Shown piece after piece: positions 11,192-35,135 of a stretch of DNA of 64,000 nucleotides (positions within the stretch are counted from its first letter, which is position 1; each line of letters begins with the position of its first letter). The position numbers and the translations under genes are program-made. The stretch is from Sorangium aterium (GTDB lineage Bacteria; Myxococcota_A; Polyangia; Polyangiales; Polyangiaceae). The DNA is taken from assembly GCF_028368935.1 (NCBI RefSeq), contig NZ_JAQNDK010000005.1, positions 1,116,001-1,180,000 of the forward strand. Reading direction: 5' to 3'. Below the pieces are notes generated by a model. It worked only from the letters and a program-made list of their open reading frames with translations. It had not been told where the DNA came from and ran no database searches.

Positions 11192-11562
11192 ATGAAGATC
11201 ACGCACGCAATCTTCTCGATAGCGCTCGGCATCACCTCGGTCGCCTCCGTGCTCGGCGGCTCGCAGCCCGCGAGCGCCGAGCCACAGAAGGCCCCGCGGG
11301 TGGTCGAGATCATGGTCCACGGCGCCTTCGTGCCCGACAAGATCGCCGCTGTCGAGGGAGAGCGGCTGGAGCTCAGGCTCGTCGTCACGACAGCGGCGGC
11401 TGCACCAAGGAGGTCATCTTCCCGAGCCTCGGCATCCGCAAGGAGCTGCCGACCGGACAGCCAGTGACCATCGACCTCCCGGAGCTGAAGGCAGGTGAGC
11501 TGAAATTCGAGTGCGGCATGGGGATGATCAAGGGCACCATCGCTGTCGCCCCGAGGAAGTGA
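11192..11562 (+). pseudogene. Cupredoxin-domain protein, frameshifted
   Basis: It starts MKITHAIFSIALGITSVASV, a clear signal peptide, with AAAGGAG before the ATG. Up to about 11383 the first frame reads as a plastocyanin-like domain (VEIMVHGAFVPDKI). The next frame then continues it: GCTKEVIFPSLGIRKELPTG to FECGMGMIKGTIAVAPRK, ending at TGA 11560-11562. The Cys of GCTKEV and the CGMGM segment are the copper ligands expected in this family. Loss of one base in GTCGTCAC (11381-11388) explains the shift. The repaired product would be about 123 residues, periplasmic. It is either a true mutation or a sequencing error. Confidence 0.8.
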
Positions 11563-11681: not shown

Positions 11682-11700
11682 AGTGACCGCACAGGTCACA
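11682..11700. promoter_or_regulatory. Operator AGTGACC-N5-GGTCACA upstream of csp
   Basis: A near-perfect inverted repeat, AGTGACC GCACA GGTCACA, in the 413-bp gap between the cupredoxin relic and csp. It is the same element as at 24676 and 12825, about 90 bp upstream of a sigma-54 promoter match. Probable binding site for the NtrC-type regulator. Confidence 0.6.
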
Positions 11701-11789: not shown

Positions 11790-11805
11790 TGGCACGACGC
11801 ATGCG
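11790..11805 (+). promoter_or_regulatory. Sigma-54 promoter match for csp
   Basis: TGGCACGACGCATGCG has a perfect -24 box (TGGCAC), the required GG-N10-GC spacing and a fair -12 box (ATGCG against TTGCA). Transcription would start near 11816, about 160 bases before the csp ATG. The rest of 11563-11975 shows no gene. Confidence 0.6.
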
Positions 11806-11975: not shown

Positions 11976-12371
11976 ATGGCTCACAAGGCATTCACTCTGA
12001 GCACGGCTTTCGTGAACACGGCCAGCCACGCCCAGAGCTGCGAGTCGATCTGCGTCCAGACGATCCAGTACTGCCTCCATATGGGAGGCTCGCACGCGGA
12101 GCCATCCCACATGCAGCTCATGCAGGATTGCGCCAAGATCTGCGAGACGACGGCGACGTTCCTGATGCGCGGCTCGCCGCAACACAACCAGGTCACGGCC
12201 GCGTGCGCGAGCATCTGCGAGCTCTGCGCTCAGAGCTGTGACCAGTTCACGGGTGACGCGCAGATGAAGGCCTGCGCCGACGAGTGCCGCCGCTGCGCCG
12301 CCGCGTGCAGGCAGGTCGCGCAGATGCGGCCGGGCGGGGCAGCCGGCGCGGGACACCAGAGCGTGCCCTGA
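11976..12371 (+). CDS. Four-helix-bundle copper storage protein (Csp/DUF326)
   Basis: A 131-residue protein with 13 Cys at 22, 26, 33, 52, 56, 77, 81, 84, 88, 100, 104, 107 and 111, mostly in CxxxC or CxxC steps on helices. This is the Csp pattern, in which Cys lining a four-helix bundle hold many Cu(I) ions. There is no Sec or Tat signal, so it is probably cytosolic like Csp3. GGGGGG precedes the ATG. It lies between copper pump genes and behind a sigma-54 promoter with a TGTGACC-type operator, so it should be induced with the efflux system. Confidence 0.93.
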   Translation: MAHKAFTLSTAFVNTASHAQSCESICVQTIQYCLHMGGSHAEPSHMQLMQDCAKICETTATFLMRGSPQHNQVTAACASICELCAQSCDQFTGDAQMKACADECRRCAAACRQVAQMRPGGAAGAGHQSVP

Positions 12372-12804: not shown

Positions 12805-12921
12805 CCCCCCCACGGTCACCGCACTGTGGCCCCAAAGGTCACAGCTCAGGAGCACCGATCGGCGCTTCGAACGACGAAAACTGATGCCGCATGACGATCG
12901 TCTGTGACCGTGGGAGGCACA
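12801..12921. promoter_or_regulatory. Cluster of three TGTGACC-type operators
   Basis: Site 1 (12801-12819) is GTGACC and GGTCAC separated by 7 bp. Site 2 (12825-12843) is TGTGGCC-CCAAA-GGTCACA. Site 3 (12903-12921) is TGTGACC-GTGGG-AGGCACA. Sites 2 and 3 keep the 5-bp spacer of the palindrome seen at 24676. All lie upstream of a sigma-54 promoter match at 13003. Confidence 0.55.
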
Positions 12922-13002: not shown

Positions 13003-13018
13003 TGGCATGGAGTTTGCG
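13003..13018 (+). promoter_or_regulatory. Sigma-54 promoter match for the astacin-like protease
   Basis: TGGCATGGAGTTTGCG matches TGGCAC-N5-TTGCA with correct GG-N10-GC spacing. The start point would be near 13029, about 35 bases before the ATG at 13064. The nearest operator ends 82 bp upstream. Confidence 0.62.
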
Positions 13019-17078: not shown

Positions 17079-19322
<2,244 letters not shown>

Positions 19323-19410
19323 GGTTTGGACTCCCTGCCCGCCGACGCTCGAGGCTCGGACTTCTTACATCCCGGCTTACACCGGACGCTCCCGGGTACC
19401 CTCGTCGGCC

Positions 19411-20829
19411 TCAGGGGCTGACGACGAGCTCGCCCATCATCCCGCGCTCGGCGTGCTCGAGGATGTGGCAGTGGTACATCCAGTCACCGGGCTCGTCGAA
19501 GCGGGCCACGACCGTGGTCGTCGACAGCTGAGGCAGGATCAGCGTGTCCTTGTTGGCGAGCGCGTCGTCGGCCACGGGGACGCCGTCCCTGGCCAGGACC
19601 TGGAAGAAGAAGCCGTGCAGATGGAACGGGTGGTCCATCTCTGCGTCGTTCTTCAGATCGAAGACGTGCGTCGAGCCGCGCTCCACCTCGATCGGCGGCA
19701 CATCAGGGTAGGTGTTGCCATCGACGAGGAACTTGAGCACTCCCTGGATATACCTCTCGTCGAACGTGATCGTCGTGTCCGCCGCCCCCCCGGGCAGCCG
19801 CTCGATGGCGGGGCCCGAGTCCGGCAGCGTGCGACCGGAGAGCGCAGGTCCCTCGCCGATGCGCACCGTGGCGAGCGGCATCGGCGCCGCCTCCCCGGTG
19901 TCGTGCCCGCGCGCATAGGCCTCGTTGGTCAGGACGATCTCCGCCCCCGGCTCCCCCTGACCGATCAGGAGCACGTCGTAGCGCTCGCCCGGCGCGACCA
20001 GCAGCCGCTCGGCGTCGTAGGGCTTCGGGATCAGCCCGCCGTCGGTGCCGATCACGCGGAACGCGTGACCGGGAAGCGCGAGGTTGAAGAAGCGGCCGTT
20101 CGCGACGTTGACGATCCGGAGCCGCGTCAGCGCGCCCGGCTCGAGCTCGAGCGTGGGCATCGTCCTGCCGTTGACGAGCAGCACGTTGCCCTCGCGGCCG
20201 AGCATGATCATGTCGTCGTCGACTTCGTCGTCGAAGCTCCCGTCCTCCTTGAGGAGCGCGTCGCCCAGCACGACGATCTTCTCGTCGTCGGCCTGCGGCT
20301 CGTCCTGGCCGCGCACCCGGATCACGCCGAACAGGCCCTTCCGGATCTGCTCCTCCTCCATCACGTGTGGGTGGAACCAGAAGAAACCCGCGTCCTTCAG
20401 CTTGAATTGATAGGTGAAGGCGTCCCCGGCCGCGATCGGTCGCTGCACCGCCGGCGCGCCGTCCATGTCGTTTGGCAGCCGGATGCCGTGCCAGTGGATC
20501 GTCGTCTCCTCCGACAGGCTGTTCTTGAAGTGGACGATCAGCGTGTCGCCCACGTTCGCCTCGATCAGCGGTCCGGGGACCGTGCCGTTGTAGGCCAGGA
20601 CCGCGGTCGTCTTACCCTCGAGGAAGCTCTTCTCTGCCTCTCCTGCCTCGAGATCGACTTCCACGATCGTCGGATCGGGGTTCGTGTCCGTCACGGGCGC
20701 AGGTTCGACCCAGGCATCAGCGGGAGGGATGTCCCCCTGAGAGCCCGGGCCCTTTTCGTCAGATCCACCACAGCTGGCCGCCACGATCAGCAGCGCGGAG
20801 CTCAGCCAAACAAGAAGGGGGAACCTCAT
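19411..20829 (-). CDS. Multicopper oxidase lipoprotein
   Basis: A 472-residue exported protein with lipobox AASC (Cys20). All copper ligand clusters are present: HWHG, HPH, HPFHLHG and HCHILEH, with a downstream Met for the type 1 site. Enzymes of this type oxidise Cu(I) to Cu(II), or other metals, with O2 in the periplasm. ATG 20829 follows GAGGAG. It lies 7 bp after the partner lipoprotein gene (20837-21304) and 88 bp before the second CopA gene, so all three are probably co-transcribed. Confidence 0.94.
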   Translation of the reverse strand: MRFPLLVWLSSALLIVAASCGGSDEKGPGSQGDIPPADAWVEPAPVTDTNPDPTIVEVDLEAGEAEKSFLEGKTTAVLAYNGTVPGPLIEANVGDTLIVHFKNSLSEETTIHWHGIRLPNDMDGAPAVQRPIAAGDAFTYQFKLKDAGFFWFHPHVMEEEQIRKGLFGVIRVRGQDEPQADDEKIVVLGDALLKEDGSFDDEVDDDMIMLGREGNVLLVNGRTMPTLELEPGALTRLRIVNVANGRFFNLALPGHAFRVIGTDGGLIPKPYDAERLLVAPGERYDVLLIGQGEPGAEIVLTNEAYARGHDTGEAAPMPLATVRIGEGPALSGRTLPDSGPAIERLPGGAADTTITFDERYIQGVLKFLVDGNTYPDVPPIEVERGSTHVFDLKNDAEMDHPFHLHGFFFQVLARDGVPVADDALANKDTLILPQLSTTTVVARFDEPGDWMYHCHILEHAERGMMGELVVSP

Positions 20830-20836
20830 CGGGTGG

Positions 20837-21304
20837 CTACTCCTCGGTGGGGTTCCCGGACATCTCGTTCGAGTAGTCGGAGTAGACTTCGCCGACCTTG
20901 CAGCGGAGCCGGTAGGTGTACTCGAGATCCTCGAAGGCACCTGCGTCCATGCGGCTCGTCTTCGTACCGGCGACCGTGAAGGCAACCTCGTACTCATGCA
21001 TGGGGTCCTTGCGCTCGCCCTCGATCTCGTCGCAGGGAGCGGGCGTCGACCACTCGACGTGGAGCACGCCGTCCATCGGCATCACCATCTCGAGGACCGG
21101 CGCCTCCGGGGCCGCGGTCTCTCCCCCACCGCCGCCGGTGGCGCTCGTGCTGCCGCCCGCACCATCCATCCCGCCCATTCCACCCATCCCACCCGCCCCC
21201 GCGGTCGTGGTACTGGAAGCATCCTCCGTGCTCGAGTCACCACAGGCGGCGAGAGCAGCAGCAATACCGAGCGCAGCGAGATAAGCGAACGTAGAGCGCG
21301 CCAT
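20837..21304 (-). CDS. Lipoprotein with Met/Gly linker and fibronectin-III-like domain
   Basis: A 155-residue lipoprotein (ALAAC, Cys21). Its linker has GMGGMGGMDG, which could bind Cu(I) through Met. A C-terminal ~85-residue beta domain follows (VLEMVMPMDGVLHVEW to YTYRLRCKVGEVYSDYSNEM), similar to fibronectin type III. The ATG has CAAGGAGA in front. As first gene of the operon with the multicopper oxidase it may be an accessory or anchor for that enzyme. No named family recognised. Confidence 0.75.
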   Translation of the reverse strand: MARSTFAYLAALGIAAALAACGDSSTEDASSTTTAGAGGMGGMGGMDGAGGSTSATGGGGGETAAPEAPVLEMVMPMDGVLHVEWSTPAPCDEIEGERKDPMHEYEVAFTVAGTKTSRMDAGAFEDLEYTYRLRCKVGEVYSDYSNEMSGNPTEE

Positions 21305-21639
21305 GGTTGAGTCTCCTTGCTGTGACCGTGATTTCGATCGGAACCGCTGAAGGTATCCGATCCGGTCACATGTACAAGAGCTCCAGAGTAATCGTCCTGG
21401 TCACACCGTCGGAACGACCATGCCTCGTCCCACTGCCGGAGCGCCATACAGCCGACGTCCGGTCGCTTGATCCCAAGGCTTCTTTATGTCGCCAGCCGCT
21501 GAACTCGTAGGCGGCGTCTGGCCTGTGCGTGCTGGCATGCAGCGCTCCGCGTGACCCGCCTATGCCCTGTGGTGCCGTGGTCAGTGCTTCGGGCGCTCGT
21601 CCTGGCGGGGTGAGCCAGCGCTGCTGGACGCTGCTGAGC
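21305..21639. promoter_or_regulatory. Promoter region with three TGTGACC half-sites
   Basis: 335 bp without a gene upstream of the lipoprotein/multicopper oxidase pair. Forward-strand half-sites are TGTGACC at 21321-21327 and GGTCACA at 21364-21370 and 21399-21405. Their second arms match only about 4 of 7 bases (GGTATCC and AGTAATC). I find no sigma-54 promoter with correct spacing, so this unit may be controlled differently from the other three. Confidence 0.45.
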
Positions 21640-23058
21640 TCAGTTCTTCGTACCGTCCGCCGTGCCCCGGCGCTCCTCCCGGAAGTCATCCGCGGAGAGC
21701 CCACAGCGCCGCAGCAGCCGATAGAAGCTCTCCCGCTCCACGCCCGCGTGCGCGGCGGCCTGTGTGACGTCACCCTGGAACCGGCGCATGACGGCCTCGA
21801 GGTAGCGCCGGTTGGTCTCCTCGCGGGAGGCGTCGACCGCTTCACGGTACGAGAGCTGCGCGAGATCGACGTCGCTCGCGCTCGTCAGCTTGAGCGGGCT
21901 CGCCCCCTGTACCTCGGGCGGGAGCGACTCCAGGCGGATCTCGCCCGACGTCTCGATCACCACCGCGCGCTCCACCGCGCTCTTGAGCTCGCGCGCGTTG
22001 CCCGGCCAGCGGTAGGTCTGGAGCGCGCTCATCGCCGCCGCGGAGAAGCGCGTCGCATTGGAGCGCGACTGCGGGGCGCGCTCCGCGAGGAAGCGCTGTG
22101 CGAGGAGCGGGATGTCGTCCGCGCGCTCCCGTAGCGGGGGCAGCTCGATGACGCAGACGTTCAGGCGGAACCAGAGATCCTCGCGGAAGGCGCCCGTCTT
22201 CACCATCGCCCGGAGGTCCCGGTGCGTCGCGGCGATCAGCCGGACGTCGATCTTGCGTTCGCGCGCCTCTCCGATGCGCCGGACCGCGCGCTCCTCGAGC
22301 ACGCGCGTCAATTTCGCTTGCACGGTCGGCCTGAGCTCACCGAGCTCATCAAGAAACAGCGTGCTCCCGTGCGCCTCCTCGAAGAGCCCCGCCCGATCCG
22401 TGGCGGCGCCCGTGAACGAGCCGCGCGCGTGGCCGAACAGCTCGCTCTCGATGAGCGATCGGGGGATGGCCGCGCAGTTGACGGCAATGGGGCGGTGCGA
22501 CGCGCGGGACGAGTGCTCATGGATGGCGCGCGCCACGAGCTCCTTCCCGGTGCCCGTCTCGCCCAGGATGAGCACGGTCGCGTCCGTCGGCGCCACGCGC
22601 TCGATGAGCTGGTAGAGCGCCCGCATGGCGGGTGAACGCCCCGTCATGCCCGCAAAGCCCTGTGCGTCCTGCGCGTCCTGCGCGCCCTTCAGCACCACGG
22701 CTTGCGCCATGGCCCGCTCGACCAACGCGCGCAGCTCGTCCGGGTCGAACGGCTTCGTCACGTAGTCGTAGGCGCCCTCGCGCATGGCCTGAACCGCGGT
22801 CGGGACCGACGCATACGCGGTCATCAGGATGAAGGGCACTCCGGGCCAGCGCGCGCGCACCGCCCGGAGCACCTCGAGGCCGTCCCCGTCGTTCATGCGC
22901 AGATCGCAGACGACGGTTGTGACCGGCTCGGTTTCAAGGATCTGGAGCGCCGTTCGCACGCCCCGCGCCGTCAGGACCTTGGCGCTCTTGCCGAGCACCT
23001 TCGAGAGGAGCGCCAGCATGTTCGCCTTGTCGTCGACGACGAGCACTGTCGGCTTCAT
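21640..23058 (-). CDS. NtrC-family sigma-54-dependent response regulator
   Basis: A 472-residue activator. Its receiver domain (1-120) has phospho-acceptor Asp52 in VVCDLRM and Lys102 in TKPF. The AAA+ domain has Walker A GETGTGKE (166-173), the sigma-54 contact loop GSFTGA (213-218, Ser for the usual Ala) and Walker B LFLDELGEL. A Fis-type helix-turn-helix lies at the C terminus (DVTQAAAHAGVERESFYRLL). Its ATG overlaps the kinase stop (ATGA at 23055-23058). Similar pairs (ZraSR-like) respond to metals. It is the best candidate to bind the TGTGACC-N5-GGTCACA sites and drive the sigma-54 promoters at 11790, 13003 and 24768. Confidence 0.93.
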   Translation of the reverse strand: MKPTVLVVDDKANMLALLSKVLGKSAKVLTARGVRTALQILETEPVTTVVCDLRMNDGDGLEVLRAVRARWPGVPFILMTAYASVPTAVQAMREGAYDYVTKPFDPDELRALVERAMAQAVVLKGAQDAQDAQGFAGMTGRSPAMRALYQLIERVAPTDATVLILGETGTGKELVARAIHEHSSRASHRPIAVNCAAIPRSLIESELFGHARGSFTGAATDRAGLFEEAHGSTLFLDELGELRPTVQAKLTRVLEERAVRRIGEARERKIDVRLIAATHRDLRAMVKTGAFREDLWFRLNVCVIELPPLRERADDIPLLAQRFLAERAPQSRSNATRFSAAAMSALQTYRWPGNARELKSAVERAVVIETSGEIRLESLPPEVQGASPLKLTSASDVDLAQLSYREAVDASREETNRRYLEAVMRRFQGDVTQAAAHAGVERESFYRLLRRCGLSADDFREERRGTADGTKN

Positions 23059-24563
23059 GCGCGCTCTTGGCTCTCCCTTGCTTCTTCAATGAGGACGCCC
23101 GGCAAGTCGATCACGAACCGGGATCCGCCGCCTGATCTGGGCTCCGCCCGGATGCTCCCACCGTGTGCGGTCACCAGACCATAGCAGACCGCGAGGCCGA
23201 GGCCGGTGCCGTCGCGGCGGGTCGTGAAGAACGGCTCGAAGAGCCGCTCGCGCGCCTCCTCGCGAATACCGGCTCCCCGGTCCAGGACCTCGATCCGGTA
23301 GCCATCGTCCTGCTGCCTTCCGCGCACGACGATCTCGTCACCTTCCGAGGTTCCGGAGGTCGCCTCGCGCGCGTTGGTCACGAGGTTGACGATCACCTGC
23401 CGGATGCGGAGCGGATCCACGTTGATGAAGGACGGCTCGGCGTCCACGAGCGGGACCTGGTCGCGCCGCCCCGGCCCGCCGTCGCAGTGCGAGGCCGCGT
23501 CCCTGAGGAGCTCCTCGGCCTGCACGGGGCGCGGCGAGAGGATCGGAGAGCGCGCGTACATGAGCAGCTCCTCCGCGATCCGCTGGCAGGCCGCCGCTTC
23601 CTCGTCGAGGATCGAGAGCTCCTCGCGGAGCTCGGGCTTCTCCGCCTCCTTCGCCATCGTCTTCACGTAACCGCGGATCACGGCGATGGGGTTGTTGATC
23701 TCGTGCGCGACGCCCGCGGCGACGCGGCCGATCGCCGCGAGCCGCTCCGAGGCGACCAGCTCGGCTTCGGTGCGCGACAGCGCGTCCAGCATCCGGTTGA
23801 ACGCGTCGGCGACCGCCGCGAGCTCCGCGGCCGCCACAGGCGCGACGCGGGCGCTGCGATCTCCAGCGGTGACGCGCACGGCGACGCGCTCGAGCGAGGA
23901 GAGCGGGGTGGAGAAAGAGCGCCAGAGCTTGCGCCCGGCGATCAAGGCGAGCGCCGCGGCGAGCGCGCAGACGGCCGTCGCGAGGATCAAAGCGAACCGG
24001 ATGAACTGCTCGGCCCGGCGCTCCGCGGCCATGGCGCGCTCGTCGAAGTGAAGCGCCAGGCTGTCCGCATGCTCCGTCATCCGATCGACGAGCGCGTTCG
24101 CGCGGTCGTGCGCGTGGTGAACCTCGTGCCAGTCCTGCCGATCGATGGCGGGGAGGATGGCCGTGGAGAAGAGCTGGCTGAGCTCGCGGCTCGTCTTCCC
24201 GATATCGTCGAGCTTCGTGGCCGTCTCGGCGTCGAGGCCGGGGCGTAGCTCGGCGAGCGTCGCGCCGAGCTCGCTCACCCAGGCGTCGTGGTGCGCGACG
24301 TGGGACCGGTCGCGCAGGATGATCGTGTGGGCCTCGTGGATGTACTGCTCGCGCGCGGTGACGCTGAGGAGCGCAGCCCGGCGGGAGGCCACCTCGAGGT
24401 CGTGGGCCTCCAGGATCGCGCGACGGGACGCGAGGCCCGTGAGCACGGTGGCGACGCCGCTCACGGCGACCAAGGCGACGAGGAGGCTGATGACCAGGAG
24501 CAGCCGGCGGCGGAGTCGGTAAGGGCGCTGTGGAGTGGGAGGCGGAGCCATGGACGGGCGCAT
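23055..24563 (-). CDS. Membrane sensor histidine kinase with His-rich periplasmic domain
   Basis: A 502-residue kinase. Transmembrane helices at about 19-43 and 188-210 flank a ~145-residue helical periplasmic domain with at least eleven His (76, 79, 88, 91, 92, 146, 149, 150, 152, 165, 172), including HEVHHAHD. HAMP follows (210-262), then HisKA with His287 in AHEINNP, and a HATPase domain with the N box and TGLGL. The His-rich sensor suggests direct metal binding. ATG 24563 or 24551 may start it. It is coupled to the response regulator and divergent from the efflux operon. Confidence 0.92.
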   Translation of the reverse strand: MRPSMAPPPTPQRPYRLRRRLLLVISLLVALVAVSGVATVLTGLASRRAILEAHDLEVASRRAALLSVTAREQYIHEAHTIILRDRSHVAHHDAWVSELGATLAELRPGLDAETATKLDDIGKTSRELSQLFSTAILPAIDRQDWHEVHHAHDRANALVDRMTEHADSLALHFDERAMAAERRAEQFIRFALILATAVCALAAALALIAGRKLWRSFSTPLSSLERVAVRVTAGDRSARVAPVAAAELAAVADAFNRMLDALSRTEAELVASERLAAIGRVAAGVAHEINNPIAVIRGYVKTMAKEAEKPELREELSILDEEAAACQRIAEELLMYARSPILSPRPVQAEELLRDAASHCDGGPGRRDQVPLVDAEPSFINVDPLRIRQVIVNLVTNAREATSGTSEGDEIVVRGRQQDDGYRIEVLDRGAGIREEARERLFEPFFTTRRDGTGLGLAVCYGLVTAHGGSIRAEPRSGGGSRFVIDLPGVLIEEARESQERA

Positions 24564-24566
24564 CCT

Positions 24567-24582
24567 CGCAAGCTGCGTACCG
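24567..24582 (-). promoter_or_regulatory. Weak sigma-54-like sequence before the kinase gene
   Basis: The minus strand reads CGGTACGCAGCTTGCG, with GG-N10-GC spacing and an intact TTGC. The start point would fall at about 24556, just ahead of ATG 24551 and after ATG 24563. The geometry is awkward, so this is tentative. Confidence 0.25.
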
Positions 24583-24675
24583 GGGCCGCAATCGAGCGCT
24601 GACAGAGCGCTGACAGAGCGCTGAGCCGCCGATCAGGCCCGGCCAACACGGTCCCCGCCCCGACGGGGGACGGTT

Positions 24676-24717
24676 TGTGACCGATGCGGTCACAAGATCG
24701 TGACCGTCGAGGTCACC
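24676..24717. promoter_or_regulatory. Two adjacent TGTGACC-N5-GGTCACA operators
   Basis: Site A (24676-24694) is TGTGACC-GATGC-GGTCACA, a perfect palindrome. Site B (24699-24717) is CGTGACC-GTCGA-GGTCACC, perfect over 7-5-7 except for the central bases. Centres are 23 bp apart, about two helical turns. They lie between the kinase gene and the efflux operon, 51-92 bp upstream of a sigma-54 promoter. Confidence 0.72.
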
Positions 24718-24767
24718 GCGAGGACCAGACGCCGCGCAGAAGCCCGGGATCCCGGCGCGCGACCGCC

Positions 24768-24783
24768 TGGCGCGCTCATTGCT
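24768..24783 (+). promoter_or_regulatory. Sigma-54 promoter match for the efflux operon
   Basis: TGGCGCGCTCATTGCT differs from TGGCAC-N5-TTGCT at one base and has exact GG-N10-GC spacing. Transcription would start near 24794, about 37 bases before the lipoprotein ATG at 24831. Confidence 0.68.
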
Positions 24784-24830
24784 CACACCCCTGCTCGCCA
24801 GGGAAAGAACCTCGGCTCCAGGAAAGCACG

Positions 24831-25751
24831 ATGCGCCAAATCCTTCTCTCTCTGCTCGTCTCGATCCCGCTTGTGGCCTGCTCCACGAAGGAGACACCTG
24901 GCCACGACCACGAAAGGGCCGCCTCGACACAAGCTCCCGCCGCGGCGCCGCCCCCCACGAAGGCGCCCGAGGACCGCGCCGCGAGCACGCGCCCCCACGC
25001 GGATCACAACGCTCGTCACGGAGGTCTGGTCACCATGGAGGGCGACAACCACGTCGAGGTCGTGGTCGGGGCCGACGGCGCCATTGACCTCTACGTCAGC
25101 GACGCCGTCCGGACGCCGATCCCGCCGCAGGACGTGTCCGGCACCATCACGATCGAGCCCAAGGGCAAGGGCGAGAAGCAGACCCTGACGCTCGCGCCGG
25201 ACGAGACGAAGGGCTCGCTCTCGGCCAAGGGCCCGGCGCCGGACAACGGGGATTACACCTGGGACCTGAAGGTCCGCGGCGCGCCGGTGAAGATGACGCT
25301 CACGGTGCCAGCCAGCGGGACGGCGGCCTTCGCCGACGCGCCCGCCGACCATCCGGCCGGCGACCACGCCCACGGCTCGCCGCATGGCGGCGTCGTCCAG
25401 TCGCTGGCAGGGGGTCATGTCGAGGTGAAGCTCGAGAAGACCGGCGACATCACGGTCTGGATGCTGGACGCGGCCGAGAAGCCTCGCTCCGCGAAGGGCG
25501 TCACGGCGAGCCTCCGCCCCGTTGTCGCGGGAGCGAAGGAGACCCAGCTCGCCTACGACGAGAAGGCCGATGTGCTGCGGGGCAAGATCGACCCGATCAA
25601 GCAGGACCACGTGGACGGGGTGCTCAGCGTCACGCCGGCCGGAGGGACCGCGACCTCGCTCCGGTTCGCGTTCCACCTAGAGGGTCCCACGGGGGCGGGG
25701 CACGACGTCCATATGGGGCACGACGGCCATATCGGGCACGAGGGGCACTGA
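24831..25751 (+). CDS. His-rich periplasmic lipoprotein with two related domains
   Basis: A 306-residue lipoprotein (LVAC, Cys17), first gene of the efflux operon. Two similar ~85-residue beta domains each begin with a His cluster and HGGxV (HADHNARHGGLV and HAHGSPHGGVV). HVEV and a Pro or Lys-rich segment follow. The tail repeats GHDxHxGH. The His residues point to metal capture in the periplasm ahead of the RND complex, like an exaggerated CusF or CzcE role. ATG 24831 follows CAGGAAAG; longer frames run into the operators. No exact family recognised. Confidence 0.8.
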   Translation: MRQILLSLLVSIPLVACSTKETPGHDHERAASTQAPAAAPPPTKAPEDRAASTRPHADHNARHGGLVTMEGDNHVEVVVGADGAIDLYVSDAVRTPIPPQDVSGTITIEPKGKGEKQTLTLAPDETKGSLSAKGPAPDNGDYTWDLKVRGAPVKMTLTVPASGTAAFADAPADHPAGDHAHGSPHGGVVQSLAGGHVEVKLEKTGDITVWMLDAAEKPRSAKGVTASLRPVVAGAKETQLAYDEKADVLRGKIDPIKQDHVDGVLSVTPAGGTATSLRFAFHLEGPTGAGHDVHMGHDGHIGHEGH

Positions 25752-25752
25752 G

Positions 25753-27057
25753 ATGACGATCCGGCGGCCGCACCGGACCCGATGCGCGATGTTCGCGGCC
25801 CTCGCTGCAACGCTGACGCTCGTGCCCGCGTCGGGCGCCCGCGGCGAGACGCTGACGTGGGCCCAGGTGAAGGCGCGCGCCGCCGCGCTGTCCCCCGCGA
25901 CCGTGGAGGCGAAGCAGGGCGCGCGCGCCGCACGCGCGGAGGCCGCCGGCGCGGGGCGCTGGCCTCGCACGAACCCCGTGCTCACGGGGGGCGTCGATCT
26001 CGGCGCACCGTTCGGACACCCGGAGGCGCGGACCTTCTCGGTCGGCATCGAGCAAGAGCTCGACGTCTTCGGGGTCGCGGCTACAGCAGCGCGCGCCGGC
26101 CAGCAGAAGATCGCCGTCGCGGCGCTGGAAGGGGCGGCGCTGAAGCTCGACGGGCTCGCCGAGGCAGCCGAGGCGTTCATCGAGCTCGAGCGAGCGCAGC
26201 GCGTGCTCGCCGTCTGGACCGAGCTCGACCGGGTTTTCGAGCGCATTGCCGCTGGCACCGCGGCGGCGTCCCGCGCCGGCGAGCGGTCGGATCTCGAGGC
26301 GATCCTGGCCAGCGCCGAGAGCGCCGGTGCGACGACCGAGCTCGCCGGCGCACGGACCGAGCTCGCGCGCGCGCAGGCGCGGCTCGGGGTGCTCATCGCC
26401 GCTGCGGAGCCCTCGTCCCTCCGCGTCGCGGAGGCGCCGGTCCGGCCGCCTGATGCCCGTGGCCGCGACGCGCTCGTGGCCGCCGCGCTCCGCCGCCGGC
26501 CCGAGGTTGGGCTCTGGCGGGCTCGGATGGGAGAGGCCGAGGCACGGCGCGCGTTCGCCGCACGTGCCGCGCTCCCGGAGCCCACGCTGGGCCTCGGGGT
26601 CGAGATGGGTCGGGAAGGGCGCGATGCCGCCCCGGCCAGCCCGGACGGGGCGACCGGCGTCCGGCACGAGCGCACGCAGCTTCAGATCAAGCTGTCCGTG
26701 CCGCTGCCGCTCTTCGACCGGAACCAGGCCGAGCGAGCCCGCGCGCTCGCCGAAGCGAGCTCCGCCAGCGAGCAGGGCGCGGTCGCTGCCAGGCAGATCA
26801 GCGCAGCGGTCACACGCGCGAAGTCTGCGGTCGACGCGAGCTGGGCGGCCCTCGCGCGGTGGCAGGCCATCGCTCGCCGGCTCGACGAGGCGCAGGCGAT
26901 GGTCGAGAAGGGCTACGCAGCAGGGCAGGTCGATCTGTTCGACACCCTCGCCCGCGCCGAGCGCGTCGCCCGCGCGCGCGTCCAGATCCTCGAGGCGCGC
27001 GCCGCCTACCTGAAAGCCCGCGCGGAGCTGTCCCGCGCGCTCGGAGAAGAACCATGA
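25753..27057 (+). CDS. Outer-membrane efflux factor, CusC/CzcC-like
   Basis: A 434-residue TolC-type protein with a signal peptide (about 1-31, ending ASGARGE) and two OEP repeats rich in long Ala/Glu/Arg helices. Typical stretches are FSVGIEQELDVFG and LSVPLPLFDRNQAE. Such trimers form the outer-membrane channel for RND pumps. It starts two bases after the preceding stop and overlaps the next gene by ATGA, showing one operon with the fusion protein and pump. Confidence 0.9.
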   Translation: MTIRRPHRTRCAMFAALAATLTLVPASGARGETLTWAQVKARAAALSPATVEAKQGARAARAEAAGAGRWPRTNPVLTGGVDLGAPFGHPEARTFSVGIEQELDVFGVAATAARAGQQKIAVAALEGAALKLDGLAEAAEAFIELERAQRVLAVWTELDRVFERIAAGTAAASRAGERSDLEAILASAESAGATTELAGARTELARAQARLGVLIAAAEPSSLRVAEAPVRPPDARGRDALVAAALRRRPEVGLWRARMGEAEARRAFAARAALPEPTLGLGVEMGREGRDAAPASPDGATGVRHERTQLQIKLSVPLPLFDRNQAERARALAEASSASEQGAVAARQISAAVTRAKSAVDASWAALARWQAIARRLDEAQAMVEKGYAAGQVDLFDTLARAERVARARVQILEARAAYLKARAELSRALGEEP

Positions 27058-27698
27058 TGTACAAGAAGCACCTCGCCTGTGCCGTGGCGCTCGCGATGGT
27101 TGCGTCGGTCCCGCGTGCCTCCGCGCACGGCGGCGAGGATCATGCGGCGCCCGCCGCGCCTACCGCCGCGAGCACCGGGACAGAGCACGTCGTGTCGGGG
27201 GAAACGGCGGTGTTCTCGGTCGTCATCAAATACCCGGCCAAGAAGGCAGAAGGACCGTCGCCCGCGCGCCTCTACGTCGCTCGGGCCGACTCCAGCGCGC
27301 CGGTCGAAGGCGCGCGTGTCCGCCTCGAGCTGAAGGGAGGGCTGGCGTTCGCCGCGGACGCGGGGAAGACGGCAGCCGTCGGCGTTTATGAGGTCGTGCT
27401 CCCCGCGGCCCCGGAAGGAGCAACGGCCAACGGAGTCGTATCGGTCGAGGCCGGGGACGCTTTCGATCTCGTGCTCGTCGGGGATCTGCGCTTCGGCGCC
27501 ATCGAGCCCGCCGCCGCGCCGACCGGGATGACGCCGGGACGAGAGGTGCCCCTCGGCGGTCTGGCGGCGGCCGCGGGAGCGCTGGCCGTGCTCAGCGGCG
27601 GGATCGGGTATGCGCTCGGGCGCCGCTCGAGGCGGAAGCCGCCTGCCGCTACCCGTCGCCCCGAGGATCCCTCCGCGCTCCCGCAGGGGGCCTCGTGA
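27054..27698 (+). CDS. HGGED periplasmic protein with C-terminal membrane anchor
   Basis: A 214-residue protein with a signal peptide ending ASA, a mature N terminus HGGEDH, a beta-sandwich-like middle (VVIKYPAKKAEGPSPARLYV) and a C-terminal hydrophobic helix (GGLAAAAGALAVLSGGIGYAL) with a basic tail. The middle may be a CopC- or fusion-protein-like domain facing the periplasm. The start overlaps the preceding stop and its end overlaps the next gene (GTGA). The following fusion protein carries the same HGGEDH motif. No named family; probably an accessory of the pump. Confidence 0.75.
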   Translation: MMYKKHLACAVALAMVASVPRASAHGGEDHAAPAAPTAASTGTEHVVSGETAVFSVVIKYPAKKAEGPSPARLYVARADSSAPVEGARVRLELKGGLAFAADAGKTAAVGVYEVVLPAAPEGATANGVVSVEAGDAFDLVLVGDLRFGAIEPAAAPTGMTPGREVPLGGLAAAAGALAVLSGGIGYALGRRSRRKPPAATRRPEDPSALPQGAS

Positions 27699-28882
27699 AC
27701 CGCGCCCGACCGCTCACCGTCGGCACCATCACCGCCGCGCTCGCCGTCGCCTCGGCCCTCGCGGTCACGGGCCTCGGGGAGCGCGCCGACGCGCACGGCG
27801 GCGAGGACCACGGCGTGCCCGCAAAGCCGTCAGCCAGCGCCGCGGCAGACCCGAACGTGGCCCGGGTGCCGATCGAGACCCAGTTCCTGCTCGGGCTGCG
27901 CACCGAGCGCGCGAAGCGCGGCGCGCTGGCCACGAGCCTCGGGCAGATCGGCACGGTGGTCGCGCGCCCCGCGGGCGAGCTGGCCGTCGTGGCCCCGACC
28001 TCCGGCCGGCTCTTCCCGCCCGAGGGCGGGTTCCTGCGGCTCGGCGACGAGGTGAAGAAGGGCCAGCTGCTCGGGACGTTCCGGCCGAGCCTGGGCGGCG
28101 CGGAGAGCGCGCAGCTCGGGCTGTCGCGCAGCGACGCCGCGTCCCGGGTCGCCGCAGCCGAGGCGCGACTCGGCCTGGCCGAACGCGAGCTCGCGCGGCG
28201 CCGCGAGCTCAAGGGGATCGTCGCCGAGAAGGACATCCAGGCCGCCGAGGCTGACGTGGAAGTCGCCAGGGCCGAGGTCGCCCGCGCCCGGGCGGACGTC
28301 GGGGTGCTCTCCGGCGGGGCGGGCGCGCAGAGGCTCAGCGCGACCATCGACGGCACGGTGGTCTCCGGCCGCGTGAGCCCGGGCGCGCAGATCGCGGAGG
28401 GCACCGAGCTCTGGCGCGTCGTCGATCTCGCGACGCTCTGGGTCGACGTGCGCATCCCGGAGGCGGACGCAGCGCGCCTCGCGGGCGATCGCGCGGAGGT
28501 GACGCTCGTCACGGATCCCGCAGCGCGCTTCGAGGCCAGACGCCTCGCCGTCGCGTCGCTGGTCGACCCGGCGACACGCACCGTCCAGGCGCTCTTCGAG
28601 TTCGACAACAAGGACCGGCGCGCGCGCGTCGGCGCGCTCGTCAACATCAGCATGGCGGGGAGCGCGCCCGTCGAGAGCGTCGTGGTCCCGGGATCGGCGC
28701 TGCTCGATCGCAGCGGAACGCCCACGGTCGTCGTGAAGACCGGCCCCGAGGCGTTCGAGCTGCGCGCGGTCGCCATCGGGCCGAAGTCCGCCGGCGCGAT
28801 CGGGATCACCGCGGGCGTGACGGCGGGAGAGCGCGTGGTCGTCGATGGCGCCATGGCCGTCCTCCTCGCCGCCGGGGGCTAG
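27695..28882 (+). CDS. RND periplasmic adaptor (membrane-fusion protein), CusB/CzcB-like
   Basis: A 395-residue HlyD-family adaptor. The signal segment ends [11 protein letters not shown], a metal-binding-like N terminus. Beta-barrel and lipoyl halves ([11 protein letters not shown] and [14 protein letters not shown]) flank a coiled-coil hairpin (about 150-205, [20 protein letters not shown]). It links the inner-membrane pump to the outer-membrane channel. GTG 27695 overlaps the preceding stop. The pump gene follows after 8 bp. Confidence 0.92.
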
Positions 28883-28890
28883 CAGAAACG

Positions 28891-31800
28891 ATGTTCGACT
28901 ACCTCATCCGCTTCTCCCTCAGGAACCGCCTCTTCGTCATCGCCGCGGCGGCGCTGGTGCTCGTCTACGGGACGTACTCGCTCCTGAAGCTCCCGATCGA
29001 CGTTTTTCCTGATCTGAATCGGCCGACGGTCACCCTCATGACCGAGGCTCCCGGGCTGGCGCCCGAGGAGGTGGAGACGCTGGTCACGGTGCCCCTCGAG
29101 CGGGTGATGAACGGCGCGCCCGGGGTCGAGCGCGTGCGCTCTACCTCGGGCGTCGGCCTGAGCGTCGTGTACGTCGAGTTCGACTGGTCCACGGACATCT
29201 ACCGCGACCGACAGCTCGTCGCCGAGCGCCTTGCCACGGTGACGGAGCAGCTCCCGAAGGGCGTCACGCCGCAGATGGGGCCCGTCGCCTCGATCATGGG
29301 GGAGATCCTGCTGATCGGGGTGCAGGGCGATGGGGCCTCGCCCATGACCCTCCGGACCCAGGCCGACTGGGTGATCCGGCCGCGGCTGCTCACGATCCCG
29401 GGGGTCGCGCAGGTGATCCCCATCGGCGGCGAGGTCCGCCAGATCCAGGTCACCGTCGACCCGGCCAAGCTCGCGGCCGCGGCGGTGTCGCTCGACGAGA
29501 TCTCGCGCGCCCTGACCGGCGCGAACGCCAACACCACCGGCGGTTACGTCGACCGGCGGGGGCTGGAGTTCCTCGTGCGGACGCTGGGCCGCGCCCGGAC
29601 CGAAGCGGACATCGCCGCGACCGTCATCGCCCTGCGGAACGGGACGCCGGTGACCCTGGCGCAGGTCGCCACGGTGAAAGCGGCCGCGCGCATCAAGCGC
29701 GGCGACGGGTCGATCGACGGCAAGCCCGCCGTGATCCTCTCGGTGCAGAAGCAGCCGGGAGCCGACACCGTCGCGCTCACCGGCAGCATCGACAAGGCCG
29801 TCGCCGAGCTGCAGAGGTCGATGCCCGCGGGCGTCACCATCAACCCGCACCTCTTCCGGCAGGCAACCTTCATCCAGGGCGCGGTCCACAACGTGGTCGA
29901 GGCGCTGCGCGACGGCGCGATCCTGGTCACGATCGTCCTCTTCCTGTTCCTGCTCAACTTCCGGACGACCGCGATCACGCTGACCGCCATCCCGCTCTCG
30001 TTCATCGTGAGCGCGCTCGTGTTCCGGGCCTTCGGCCTGTCGGTCAACACGATGACGCTGGGCGGTCTCGCGGTGGCGATCGGCGAGCTCGTCGACGACG
30101 CCATCGTGGACGTGGAGAACGTGTTCCGGCGCCTGCGCGAGAACAGGGCGCTCGCCTCGCCGCGGCCGGCGATGGACGTCATCCGCGACGCGTCGAGCGA
30201 GGTCCGGAGCTCCATCGTCTTCGCGACGATCCTGGTGGTCCTGGTCTTCGTTCCCCTGTTCGCCATGAGCGGCATCGAGGGGCGGCTCTTCGCTCCGCTC
30301 GGGATCGCCTACATCGTGTCGATCCTTGCATCGCTGGTTGTATCCCTGACGGTCACTCCCGCGCTCTGCTCCTATCTCTTGCCGTCCATGAAGCGCATGA
30401 GCCACGAGGACGGCTGGCTGGTGCGCAAGCTCAAGGCCGCGGACCGGCGCGTGCTCGCGGCGTCGCTGCGGCACCCCGGGGCCGTGACGGCGGCGGCAGG
30501 CGCGCTGGTCCTCGCCGCCGCGGCGACGGTGCCGTTCCTGGGCGGCGAGTTCCTCCCGCCGTTCAACGAGGGGACGCTCACAGTGAACGTCGTCGCCAGG
30601 CCGGGCACGTCGCTCGCCGAGTCGAGTCGCCTCGGCTCGCTCGCCGAGCAGCTGATCCACGAGGTCCCCGAGGTCATGTCGACCGGGCGGCGGACCGGCC
30701 GAGCCGAGCTGGACGAGCACGCGGAGGGAGTCCACTACAGCGAAATCGATGTCGACCTCAGGGCGTCCGAGCGTGAGCGGGAGGCGATCCTCGGCGACAT
30801 CCGCGACCAGCTCGACAAGATCCCCGGCGTTGCGATCAACGTGGGCCAGCCGATCTCGCACCGGCTCGACCACCTGCTCTCGGGCGTCCGTGCACAGGTG
30901 GCCGTGAAGATCTTCGGCGAGGATCTCGGCGAGCTGCGGCGCCTCGGGAAGGCGGCGCGCGACGCGATGCAGGGCGTCGCCGGGGTGAAGGACCTGCAGA
31001 TCGAGCAGCAGGTGCTCATCCCGCAGATCGCCATCAAGGTGAACCGAGAGCGCGCGGCGCAGCTCGGGGTCAACGCGGGTCAGCTCTCGGAGATGCTCGA
31101 GCTCGCCCTCGCGGGCGGTACCGTCACACAGCTTCTGGAGGGGCAGCGGACCATCGATGTGGTGCTCCGGTACCCGCCGGAGCTCCGCGAGGACATCGAC
31201 GCCTTGCGGCGCACGCTCGTCGATACGCCCAGCGGCGCGAAGGTGCCGCTGGCCGACCTCGCCGACGTGACGGAGAGCATGGGGCCGAACCAGATCAGCC
31301 GCGACGACACGCAGCGTCGCATCGTGGTCTCGGCCAACGTGGCGGGGCGCGATCTGGAGCAAGTCGTGAGCAATATCCAGCGCGCCGTGGACGCGATCCC
31401 GAAGCCGCCGGGCTACTACGCGACGTACGGCGGGCAGTTCGAGAGCCAGCGCTCGGCGTCGCGACTGATCGGATGGCTCTCGATCGCGAGCCTCGCCGGC
31501 ATGCTCGTGGTCCTCTACTCCCAGTTCCGCTCGTGGACCGTGGCCCTCCAGATCCTCCTGAACATCCCGCTCGCTCTGGTCGGCTCGGTGCTCGCCGTCG
31601 TGCTCACCGGCGGGGTCCTTTCGGTCGCGACCCTCGTCGGGTTCATCACGCTGTGCGGCATCGCCTCGCGCAACGGCATCATGATGATCTCGCACTACAT
31701 CCACCTCATGAAGGAAGAGGGCGAGTCGTTCGGTGAGGCGATGATCGTCCGCGGCTCCCTGGAACGCCTCGTTCCGGTGCTGATGACCGCGCTCACCGCC

Positions 31801-32079
31801 GCCCTGGCGCTCGTGCCCATCGCGCTCTCCAAGGGCCAGCCGGGCAAGGAGATCCTGCAGCCCGTCGCGGTGGTGATCCTCGGTGGCCTGCTCTCGTCGA
31901 CGCTGCTCGACATCGTCGTCACGCCGGCGGTGTTCCTGAAGTTCGGCCGCAGCTCCGCTGAGCGTCTGGCGCGCGCCCGGGACAGCGCGGGCGGCGCCCA
32001 GGCCGACCTCGCCGGTGCGGCGCCCGATGAATGCGGGAGTGTCGCCCGGGAGCATGGGGCCTGCGCCGGAGCGCCTTGA
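28891..32079 (+). CDS. Heavy-metal RND efflux pump, CusA/CzcA family
   Basis: A full-length 1062-residue proton/metal antiporter with twelve expected helices and two periplasmic porter loops. It begins [17 protein letters not shown], usual for HME-RND pumps. Helix IV carries the charged set [13 protein letters not shown] (two Asp and Glu), needed for proton coupling. [19 protein letters not shown] and [18 protein letters not shown] mark the C-terminal half. The last ~35 residues after [13 protein letters not shown] are low-complexity. Together with the adaptor and outer-membrane factor genes it makes a complete tripartite system. Copper/silver or zinc/cobalt/nickel remain possible. Confidence 0.95.
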
Positions 32080-33824: not shown

Positions 33825-35135
33825 ATGGACCGACGTTCTTTCATCCATGCGGGCGGCCTCGCCGCCGGCGCTGCCCTCCTCACGCGAGGGCTGGCCCATG
33901 CGCAGGAGCGCCCCGAGCACGCCGCGGGGCAGCCCGCCGGCGCCCGGATCGCGGGGGCGGGGAATCAGCCTGCGGTCGTGACGCCCAACGGCAGCACGCT
34001 CCCGTGGCGGGTCGTGGATGGGGTGAAGGTGGGGCACCTCATCGCCGAGCCGATCCAGCACGAGTTCGCGCCCGGGCTGAAGACCGAGGCCTGGGGTTAC
34101 AACGGGAGCACGCCCGGGCCGACGATCGAGGCCGTCGAGGGGGACCGGCTCCGGATCTACGTCACGAACCGACTGCCGGAGCCGACGTCGGTGCACTGGC
34201 ATGGGCTCGTGCTCCCGAACGGAATGGATGGAGTGTCGGGGCTCAACCAGCGTCCGATCCCGCCCGGGGAAACGTACGTCTACGAGTTCGTGGTCCGGTA
34301 CCCGGGGACGTATATGTACCATTCCCATTTCGACGAAATGACCCAGATCGCGCTCGGCGGCGTGGGGATGTTCATCGTGCATCCGAAGAAGCCTCGAGGT
34401 CCGCGCGTGGACAGGGATTTCGTGCTCATGACGCACGAGTGGAAGATCAACGCGGGGGCGCGCCGGCCGGATCCGAACGCGATGAGCGACTTCAACGTGC
34501 TCACGTTCAACGGCAAGGCGTTCCCGGCGACGGCGCCGCTCGTGGTCGGCCGCGGCGAGCGCGCGCGCATCCGCCTCGGGAACCTGGGGCCGATGGACCA
34601 CCACCCGATCCACCTGCACGGGCTCTCGTTCCAGGTCACGGCGACCGACGGCGGGTATGTCCCCGCGTCCGCGCAGTACCCGGAGACCACGGTCCTGGTG
34701 CCGGTCGGCAGCACGCGGGTCATCGAGTTCGTCCCTGAGGAGCCGGGCGACTGGGCTGTGCATTGCCACATGACCCACCATGTGATGATGCAAATGGGTC
34801 ACGGGCTGCCGAACATGGTCGGCGCCGATACGCGCACGCTCGACCGACGTATGAGCCGCGTGATGCCCGGCTACATGACCATGGGGACGACGGGCATGGG
34901 CGGCATGGGCGAGATGCCCATGCCGATACCGCCGAACAGCCTGCCGATGAAGGGCGGCGACGGGCCCTTCTCGTACATCGACATGGGCGGGATGTTCACG
35001 GTCCTGAAGGTCCGCGAGGAGCCGGGCAAGGCCGACCCGAACGGCTGGTACACGCACCCGGCCGGCACGGTCGCAGGACCGGCCGCCGCAGAGAAGATGC
35101 GCGCGGACGGTATCGACCCGAGCGCGCGGAAGTAG
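33825..35135 (+). CDS. Tat-exported multicopper oxidase with Met-rich C-terminal region
   Basis: A 436-residue enzyme with a Tat signal (MDRRSFIHAGGLAAGAALL). Copper sites are HWHG, HSH, HHPIHLHG and HCHMTHH. A Met-rich segment follows (MSRVMPGYMTMGTTGMGGMG, then EMPMPIP), as in copper oxidases of the CopA/PcoA and CueO types, where Met loops bind Cu(I). It probably oxidises periplasmic Cu(I). GGAGGA lies just upstream and the ATG comes one base after the previous stop, so it is the last gene of the efflux run. It is distinct from the lipoprotein oxidase at 19411. Confidence 0.94.
   Translation: MDRRSFIHAGGLAAGAALLTRGLAHAQERPEHAAGQPAGARIAGAGNQPAVVTPNGSTLPWRVVDGVKVGHLIAEPIQHEFAPGLKTEAWGYNGSTPGPTIEAVEGDRLRIYVTNRLPEPTSVHWHGLVLPNGMDGVSGLNQRPIPPGETYVYEFVVRYPGTYMYHSHFDEMTQIALGGVGMFIVHPKKPRGPRVDRDFVLMTHEWKINAGARRPDPNAMSDFNVLTFNGKAFPATAPLVVGRGERARIRLGNLGPMDHHPIHLHGLSFQVTATDGGYVPASAQYPETTVLVPVGSTRVIEFVPEEPGDWAVHCHMTHHVMMQMGHGLPNMVGADTRTLDRRMSRVMPGYMTMGTTGMGGMGEMPMPIPPNSLPMKGGDGPFSYIDMGGMFTVLKVREEPGKADPNGWYTHPAGTVAGPAAAEKMRADGIDPSARK

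Follow-up and report, generated by a model that had tools for sequence, protein, structure and literature searches.

The closest described systems pair a sensor kinase with an activator of sigma-54 promoters. In ZraPSR of Salmonella and E. coli, as set out in passages of PMC4987338, the kinase and NtrC-type regulator genes are divergent from a metal-related target gene, the product of which, ZraP, is periplasmic, and ZraR acts on the divergent sigma-54 promoters of zraSR and zraP. The zraP/zraS spacer is also among the RpoN holoenzyme targets given in part of PMC8743547. The CorSR/curA operon system of Myxococcus xanthus, according to sections of PMC3707914, has a HAMP-containing kinase with a periplasmic sensor and a sigma-54-activating regulator; the corSR genes are within a nine-gene copper operon and adjoin multicopper oxidase and CopA genes, with putative sigma-54 promoters.

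The window, meaning the whole 64 kb stretch of Sorangium aterium DNA analysed (0.5 % of the 13.47 Mb genome), is a copper/heavy-metal gene cluster containing two P-type ATPases, two multicopper oxidases, a CusA/CzcA-type RND pump with its partners, and a Csp1-like protein, the last assigned from a weak match below the curated cut-off. Region 24564-24830 is intergenic, and its reading from the sequence alone as a divergent control region between a kinase gene and a lipoprotein/RND operon is borne out by the layout of the flanking genes, which run leftward for the kinase and its regulator and rightward for the lipoprotein, OEP, small protein, MFP, and RND genes:

21640..23058, minus strand: NtrC-type response regulator (receiver, sigma-54 AAA+, and HTH_8 domains)
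23055..24563, minus strand: sensor histidine kinase (HAMP, HisKA, HATPase; His-rich helical periplasmic domain; 24551 is a possible translation start)
24831..25751, plus strand: His-rich lipoprotein, gene 1 of the efflux operon, without a trusted family match
25753..27057, plus strand: outer-membrane efflux protein (OEP)
27057..27698, plus strand: small conserved protein of the efflux operon, kept in congeners G004 and G002
27695..28882, plus strand: CusB/HlyD-type membrane fusion protein (MFP)
28891..32079, plus strand: CusA/CzcA heavy-metal RND transporter (TIGR00914, above cut-off)

A longer frame at the small-protein locus (26859-27695) has no Pfam match. Near the kinase pair, multicopper oxidase/CopA genes are present at 17079-21304 and 33825-35135.

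As in ZraPSR, the kinase and regulator genes are divergent from a metal-related target, and a sigma-54 promoter towards that target is predicted here too (1 mismatch). The divergent architecture is of a known kind. Differences from ZraPSR are the target, here an operon for lipoprotein and RND efflux, the operator sequence GTGACC-N5-GGTCAC, and the weakness of the putative promoter towards the kinase. Among solved structures, the predicted kinase model is matched best by the ZraS cytoplasmic domain (33 % identity); the regulator does not reach the cut-off of the ZraR model. CorSR is the nearest system in gene content, its predicted likeness being one of domains and gene content: a HAMP-containing membrane kinase, a sigma-54-activating regulator, and linked multicopper oxidase/CopA genes, although here the pair is divergent from an RND operon. 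The main text of PMC3707914 names no operator for CorSR, none is reported for this kinase family or CorR in the titles or abstracts of the literature searched, and for Sorangium copper kinases that literature gave only PMC3707914. Assignment of an operator to this kinase family appears to be new within the literature searched.

The proteins carry features shared across the family. Five histidines of the kinase periplasmic domain (H76, H79, H88, H91, and H152) are invariant in 12 aligned kinases, and the domain is helical in the predicted model (mean pLDDT 81). In the regulator, the loop is GSFTGA, a form shared with one of ten aligned relatives and replaced by GAFTGA in the rest, and the ERESFYRL segment is conserved in the HTH, with E441, R442, R447, and L448 invariant in 11 aligned regulators. 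There is one RpoN in the genome.

Based on the evidence below, the region is read, with a probability of about three in four, as the divergent sigma-54 control region of a two-component system that resembles CorSR, probably responds to copper, and would drive the efflux operon and probably its own kinase genes. The proposed control elements are as follows:

24567..24582, minus strand: weak kinase-facing sigma-54 element CGGTACGCAGCTTGCG (3 mismatches, GG and GC intact), inside conserved block 24564-24585
24594..24624, no strand: GAGCGCTGACA tandem repeat (11+11+9 bases), species-specific
24677..24693, no strand: operator 1, GTGACCGATGCGGTCAC, a perfect GTGACC-N5-GGTCAC, found with unchanged spacing in two congeners
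24700..24716, no strand: operator 2, GTGACCGTCGAGGTCAC, a perfect GTGACC-N5-GGTCAC, kept in two congeners
24768..24783, plus strand: sigma-54 -24/-12 element of the efflux operon, TGGCGCGCTCATTGCT (1 mismatch)
24820..24825, plus strand: ribosome-binding site AGGAAA of the lipoprotein gene, recognized by sequence, in a fully conserved leader

In the proposed mechanism, periplasmic metal would activate the kinase, which would phosphorylate the NtrC-type regulator of the neighbouring gene. Dimers of this regulator would occupy the two adjacent operators and assemble an AAA+ ring. By looping, the ring would remodel sigma-54 RNA polymerase at the operon promoter, from which the centre of the operator pair is near -97, and probably also at the weaker kinase promoter, where the pair centre is near -140. 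We infer the direction of the effect to be positive: efflux would be induced, with modest positive autoregulation.

The two operators had been noted in the sequence-only reading as 23 bp apart. This is their start-to-start distance, leaving a gap of 6 bp, and in each both 6-base arms match fully (12/12 bases). Genome-wide there are seven perfect palindromes in the 13.47 Mb, three of which are inside the window (probability of at least three approximately 6e-6, from the genome density), and no perfect sites for the reversed control pattern. Operators 1 and 2 are the sole close pair among them. When up to two mismatches are permitted, the window has 12 palindromes; shuffled sequence gives 4.1 on average and 9 at most. 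One-mismatch palindromes number 100 in the genome (12 for the reversed pattern), therefore single imperfect sites carry little weight. The four perfect operators outside the window were considered as regulon members and rejected; all lie within listed ORFs 100 aa or longer and lack a sigma-54 match (up to two mismatches, 3-kb loci), and they are therefore treated as chance.

The region is present in three of the six genus genomes searched, its own included, the others being G004 and G002. When these three are aligned, 64 % of the columns from one start codon to the other are invariant. The operon-facing sigma-54 site has 15 of 16 columns invariant, the first 16 bases of the two operators have 13 and 14, and the spacing of the operators and operon promoter is identical in the two congeners. 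The lipoprotein leader with its ribosome-binding site (16/16) is among the most conserved 16-base windows. The tandem repeat, earlier described as nearly three copies and confirmed at that length, is unique in the genome; it was rejected as a conserved element, being absent from both congeners, and is probably incidental. One match to an IHF site, at 24590 with two mismatches, was not credited. Within the regulator coding sequence, a near-operator at 22919-22935 has two mismatches here and one in both G004 and G002, which may be simple coding conservation.

The sigma-54 match pointing to the operon is likewise as it had been described. With one mismatch and conservation in two congeners, it is one of only two sites this good in the 64 kb, and it predicts an operon start near 24794 and a 37-nt leader.

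Kinase homologues were gathered from 59 relatives, 235 phylum genomes, and named contigs, with kinase 5′ ends in the upstream counts extrapolated from BLAST alignments. Excluded from the counts were L040, in which the contig starts inside the kinase, and four near-full-length matches without loci (G252:C77, G253:C145, G151:C260, and G177:C153); the G053 kinase, which has an in-frame stop, was left out of the protein alignment and its upstream DNA was counted. Of 36 family kinases, 13 have an operator with no more than one mismatch in the 450 bp upstream, compared with 1 of 98 control kinases (Fisher test, p = 7e-8, with the control total taken as 97; no material change at 98). The controls divide into 22 Myxococcota kinases matching in the kinase domain alone, one of which has the operator, and 76 other named kinases (from 77 loci, one skipped as it was without upstream DNA), none of which has it. 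For the control kinases, three times more sequence was scanned than for the family. The other 23 of the 36 family kinases have no such GTGACC operator in the 450 bp scanned. With the degenerate form GTRACC-N5-GGTYAC, the counts are 18 of 36 family kinases and 1 of 22 Myxococcota controls.

When no word was presumed, GTGACC was the commonest exact 6-N5-6 inverted-repeat word, found at 16 of 36 family loci (next word, 8) and absent from the 77 control loci, which are mostly from other phyla and of mixed base composition. Operator pairs with a spacing of 20 or 23 bp, when sites with as many as two mismatches are included, are present in seven of the 36 family upstream regions, at 23 bp in G000, G004, and G002 and at 20 bp in G054, G044, G018, and G115. 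In G043, two contigs contain between them the two family kinases of this genome and 19 of its 27 perfect GTGACC sites. Both of these contigs have many metal genes (L047, L048, and L162-L166), apparently as two large metal-resistance islands. In the Corallococcus family, five of nine loci have no operator with up to one mismatch in as much as 19 kb; L213 of this family has the order multicopper oxidase, kinase, regulator, CopA.

Operators and sigma-54 matches also occur together. In a scan of 36 family records (441 kb; sigma-54 matches with up to two mismatches and GG and GC intact), 18 of 53 operators with no more than one mismatch had an outward-pointing sigma-54 match 20-160 bp away (0.78 expected), as did 11 of the 27 perfect operators (0.40 expected). 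Six of the 18 belong to the three orthologous copies of the present region. A CopA gene of G252 has, immediately before it (L161:13525-13662), a sigma-54 match and two operators with a spacing of 22 bp; in its predicted elements this is a second clean example of the present promoter design. Motif clustering, conservation, operator/sigma-54 co-occurrence, and kinase-family association give good support to sigma-54 control of the efflux operon by the local NtrC-type regulator from its predicted operators.

Elsewhere in the window, there are further operators:

11683..11699, no strand: third perfect operator of the window, upstream of the gene for the Cys-rich Csp1-like copper storage protein (11976-12371)
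21353-21369 and 21388-21404, no strand: two degenerate operators, before a small protein-multicopper oxidase-CopA run (21304 down to 17079, minus strand)

The operator at 11683-11699 is kept in G004 with one mismatch; a sigma-54 match at 11790, near the Csp1-like gene, was rejected as it is not conserved in G004. No sigma-54 match was found for the degenerate operators at 21353-21404. Imperfect operators at 12826 and 12904 and a sigma-54 match at 13003-13018 (two mismatches) precede a gene with the HELGHVLGFRHEH metalloprotease motif, for which tblastn found no match in the G004 stretch examined. The cupredoxin-like gene at 11192-11560 is apparently split by a frame change, as the frame from 11192 ends early and a typical C-terminal segment continues in another frame.

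Control of the kinase genes is less certain than that of the operon. A weaker sigma-54 match at 24567-24582, directed towards the kinase, had been reported from the sequence, with coupled induction and feedback as its consequence. The element is present, but it is a poor match to the consensus, and sites at least as good number 31 in the window (0.12 expected per 250 bp). It also leaves little room for a leader, with a predicted kinase start near 24556 that is 5 nt before the ATG at 24551 and downstream of the ATG at 24563, which is excluded. In addition, 35 of 44 family kinases have no kinase-facing match within two mismatches. These points would suit a one-way design, in which the operators serve the efflux operon alone through the promoter at 24768 and the kinase and regulator are expressed from another, constitutive promoter. 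Such a design is nonetheless rated the less likely. The kinase-facing element is invariant at 15 of 16 bases in the three-genome alignment, compared with the 64 % for the whole region; consensus scans found no sigma-70 promoters or terminators in the region, including no sigma-70-type site facing the kinase; and family members have better matches at the same place. Nine of the 44 family kinases, the window's own being outside this group, have a match directed at the kinase that departs from the consensus at no more than two positions (0.22 expected), in all cases 8-74 bp upstream of the extrapolated 5′ end. Matches facing away from the kinase are found for eight of the 44, including the present region and its two copies, and matches in both directions for four (G037, G179, G252, and G282). 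In G252, an operator between the kinase and OEP/MFP/RND genes has a sigma-54 match 61 bp away on each side, and G179 has the same two-way design with CopA. In G018, the kinase leader is likewise short. Of the earlier proposal, control of the operon therefore stands, while positive autoregulation of the kinase through a two-way enhancer is rated plausible and is modestly favoured because the element is conserved and better family promoters occur at the same place, despite the poor consensus match.

The other explanations concern what the palindromes are. They may bind a different regulator, either a repressor or another metal-response activator, with the sigma-54 sites answering another enhancer-binding protein. 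The binder here is a predicted one, a sigma-54 match is lacking at some operators in metal clusters, and sites are also present near non-kinase genes. However, the palindrome accompanies this kinase family and does not accompany other kinases, no inverted repeat is more common at the family loci, and its occurrence at enhancer distance from sigma-54 matches is far above expectation, which together make a different binder improbable. It is far less probable still that the palindromes and sigma-54 matches are mere coincidence in GC-rich DNA; the 100 one-mismatch operators in the genome and the frequency of sites as weak as the kinase-facing match would fit with this, but the genome-wide clustering, conservation at fixed spacing, and recurrence in distant relatives do not. 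The preferred reading is that of a two-component system controlling its divergent efflux operon, and probably itself, through sigma-54.

Sigma-54 activators are abundant in myxobacteria, and here a specific operator is tied, by comparison alone, to one family of metal-sensor pairs. It is reasonably likely that GTRACC-N5-GGTYAC is a lineage-wide operator code of CorR-type sigma-54 activators in the Myxococcota, marking whole copper/metal regulons, and that a recurrent two-way enhancer couples the sensor to the efflux output. Since the operator is tied to one sensor-pair family, the predicted regulons, including that of M. xanthus CorSR, are readable from sequence and testable. The operator is found next to related sensors in many distant relatives, where it could serve to map the copper response.
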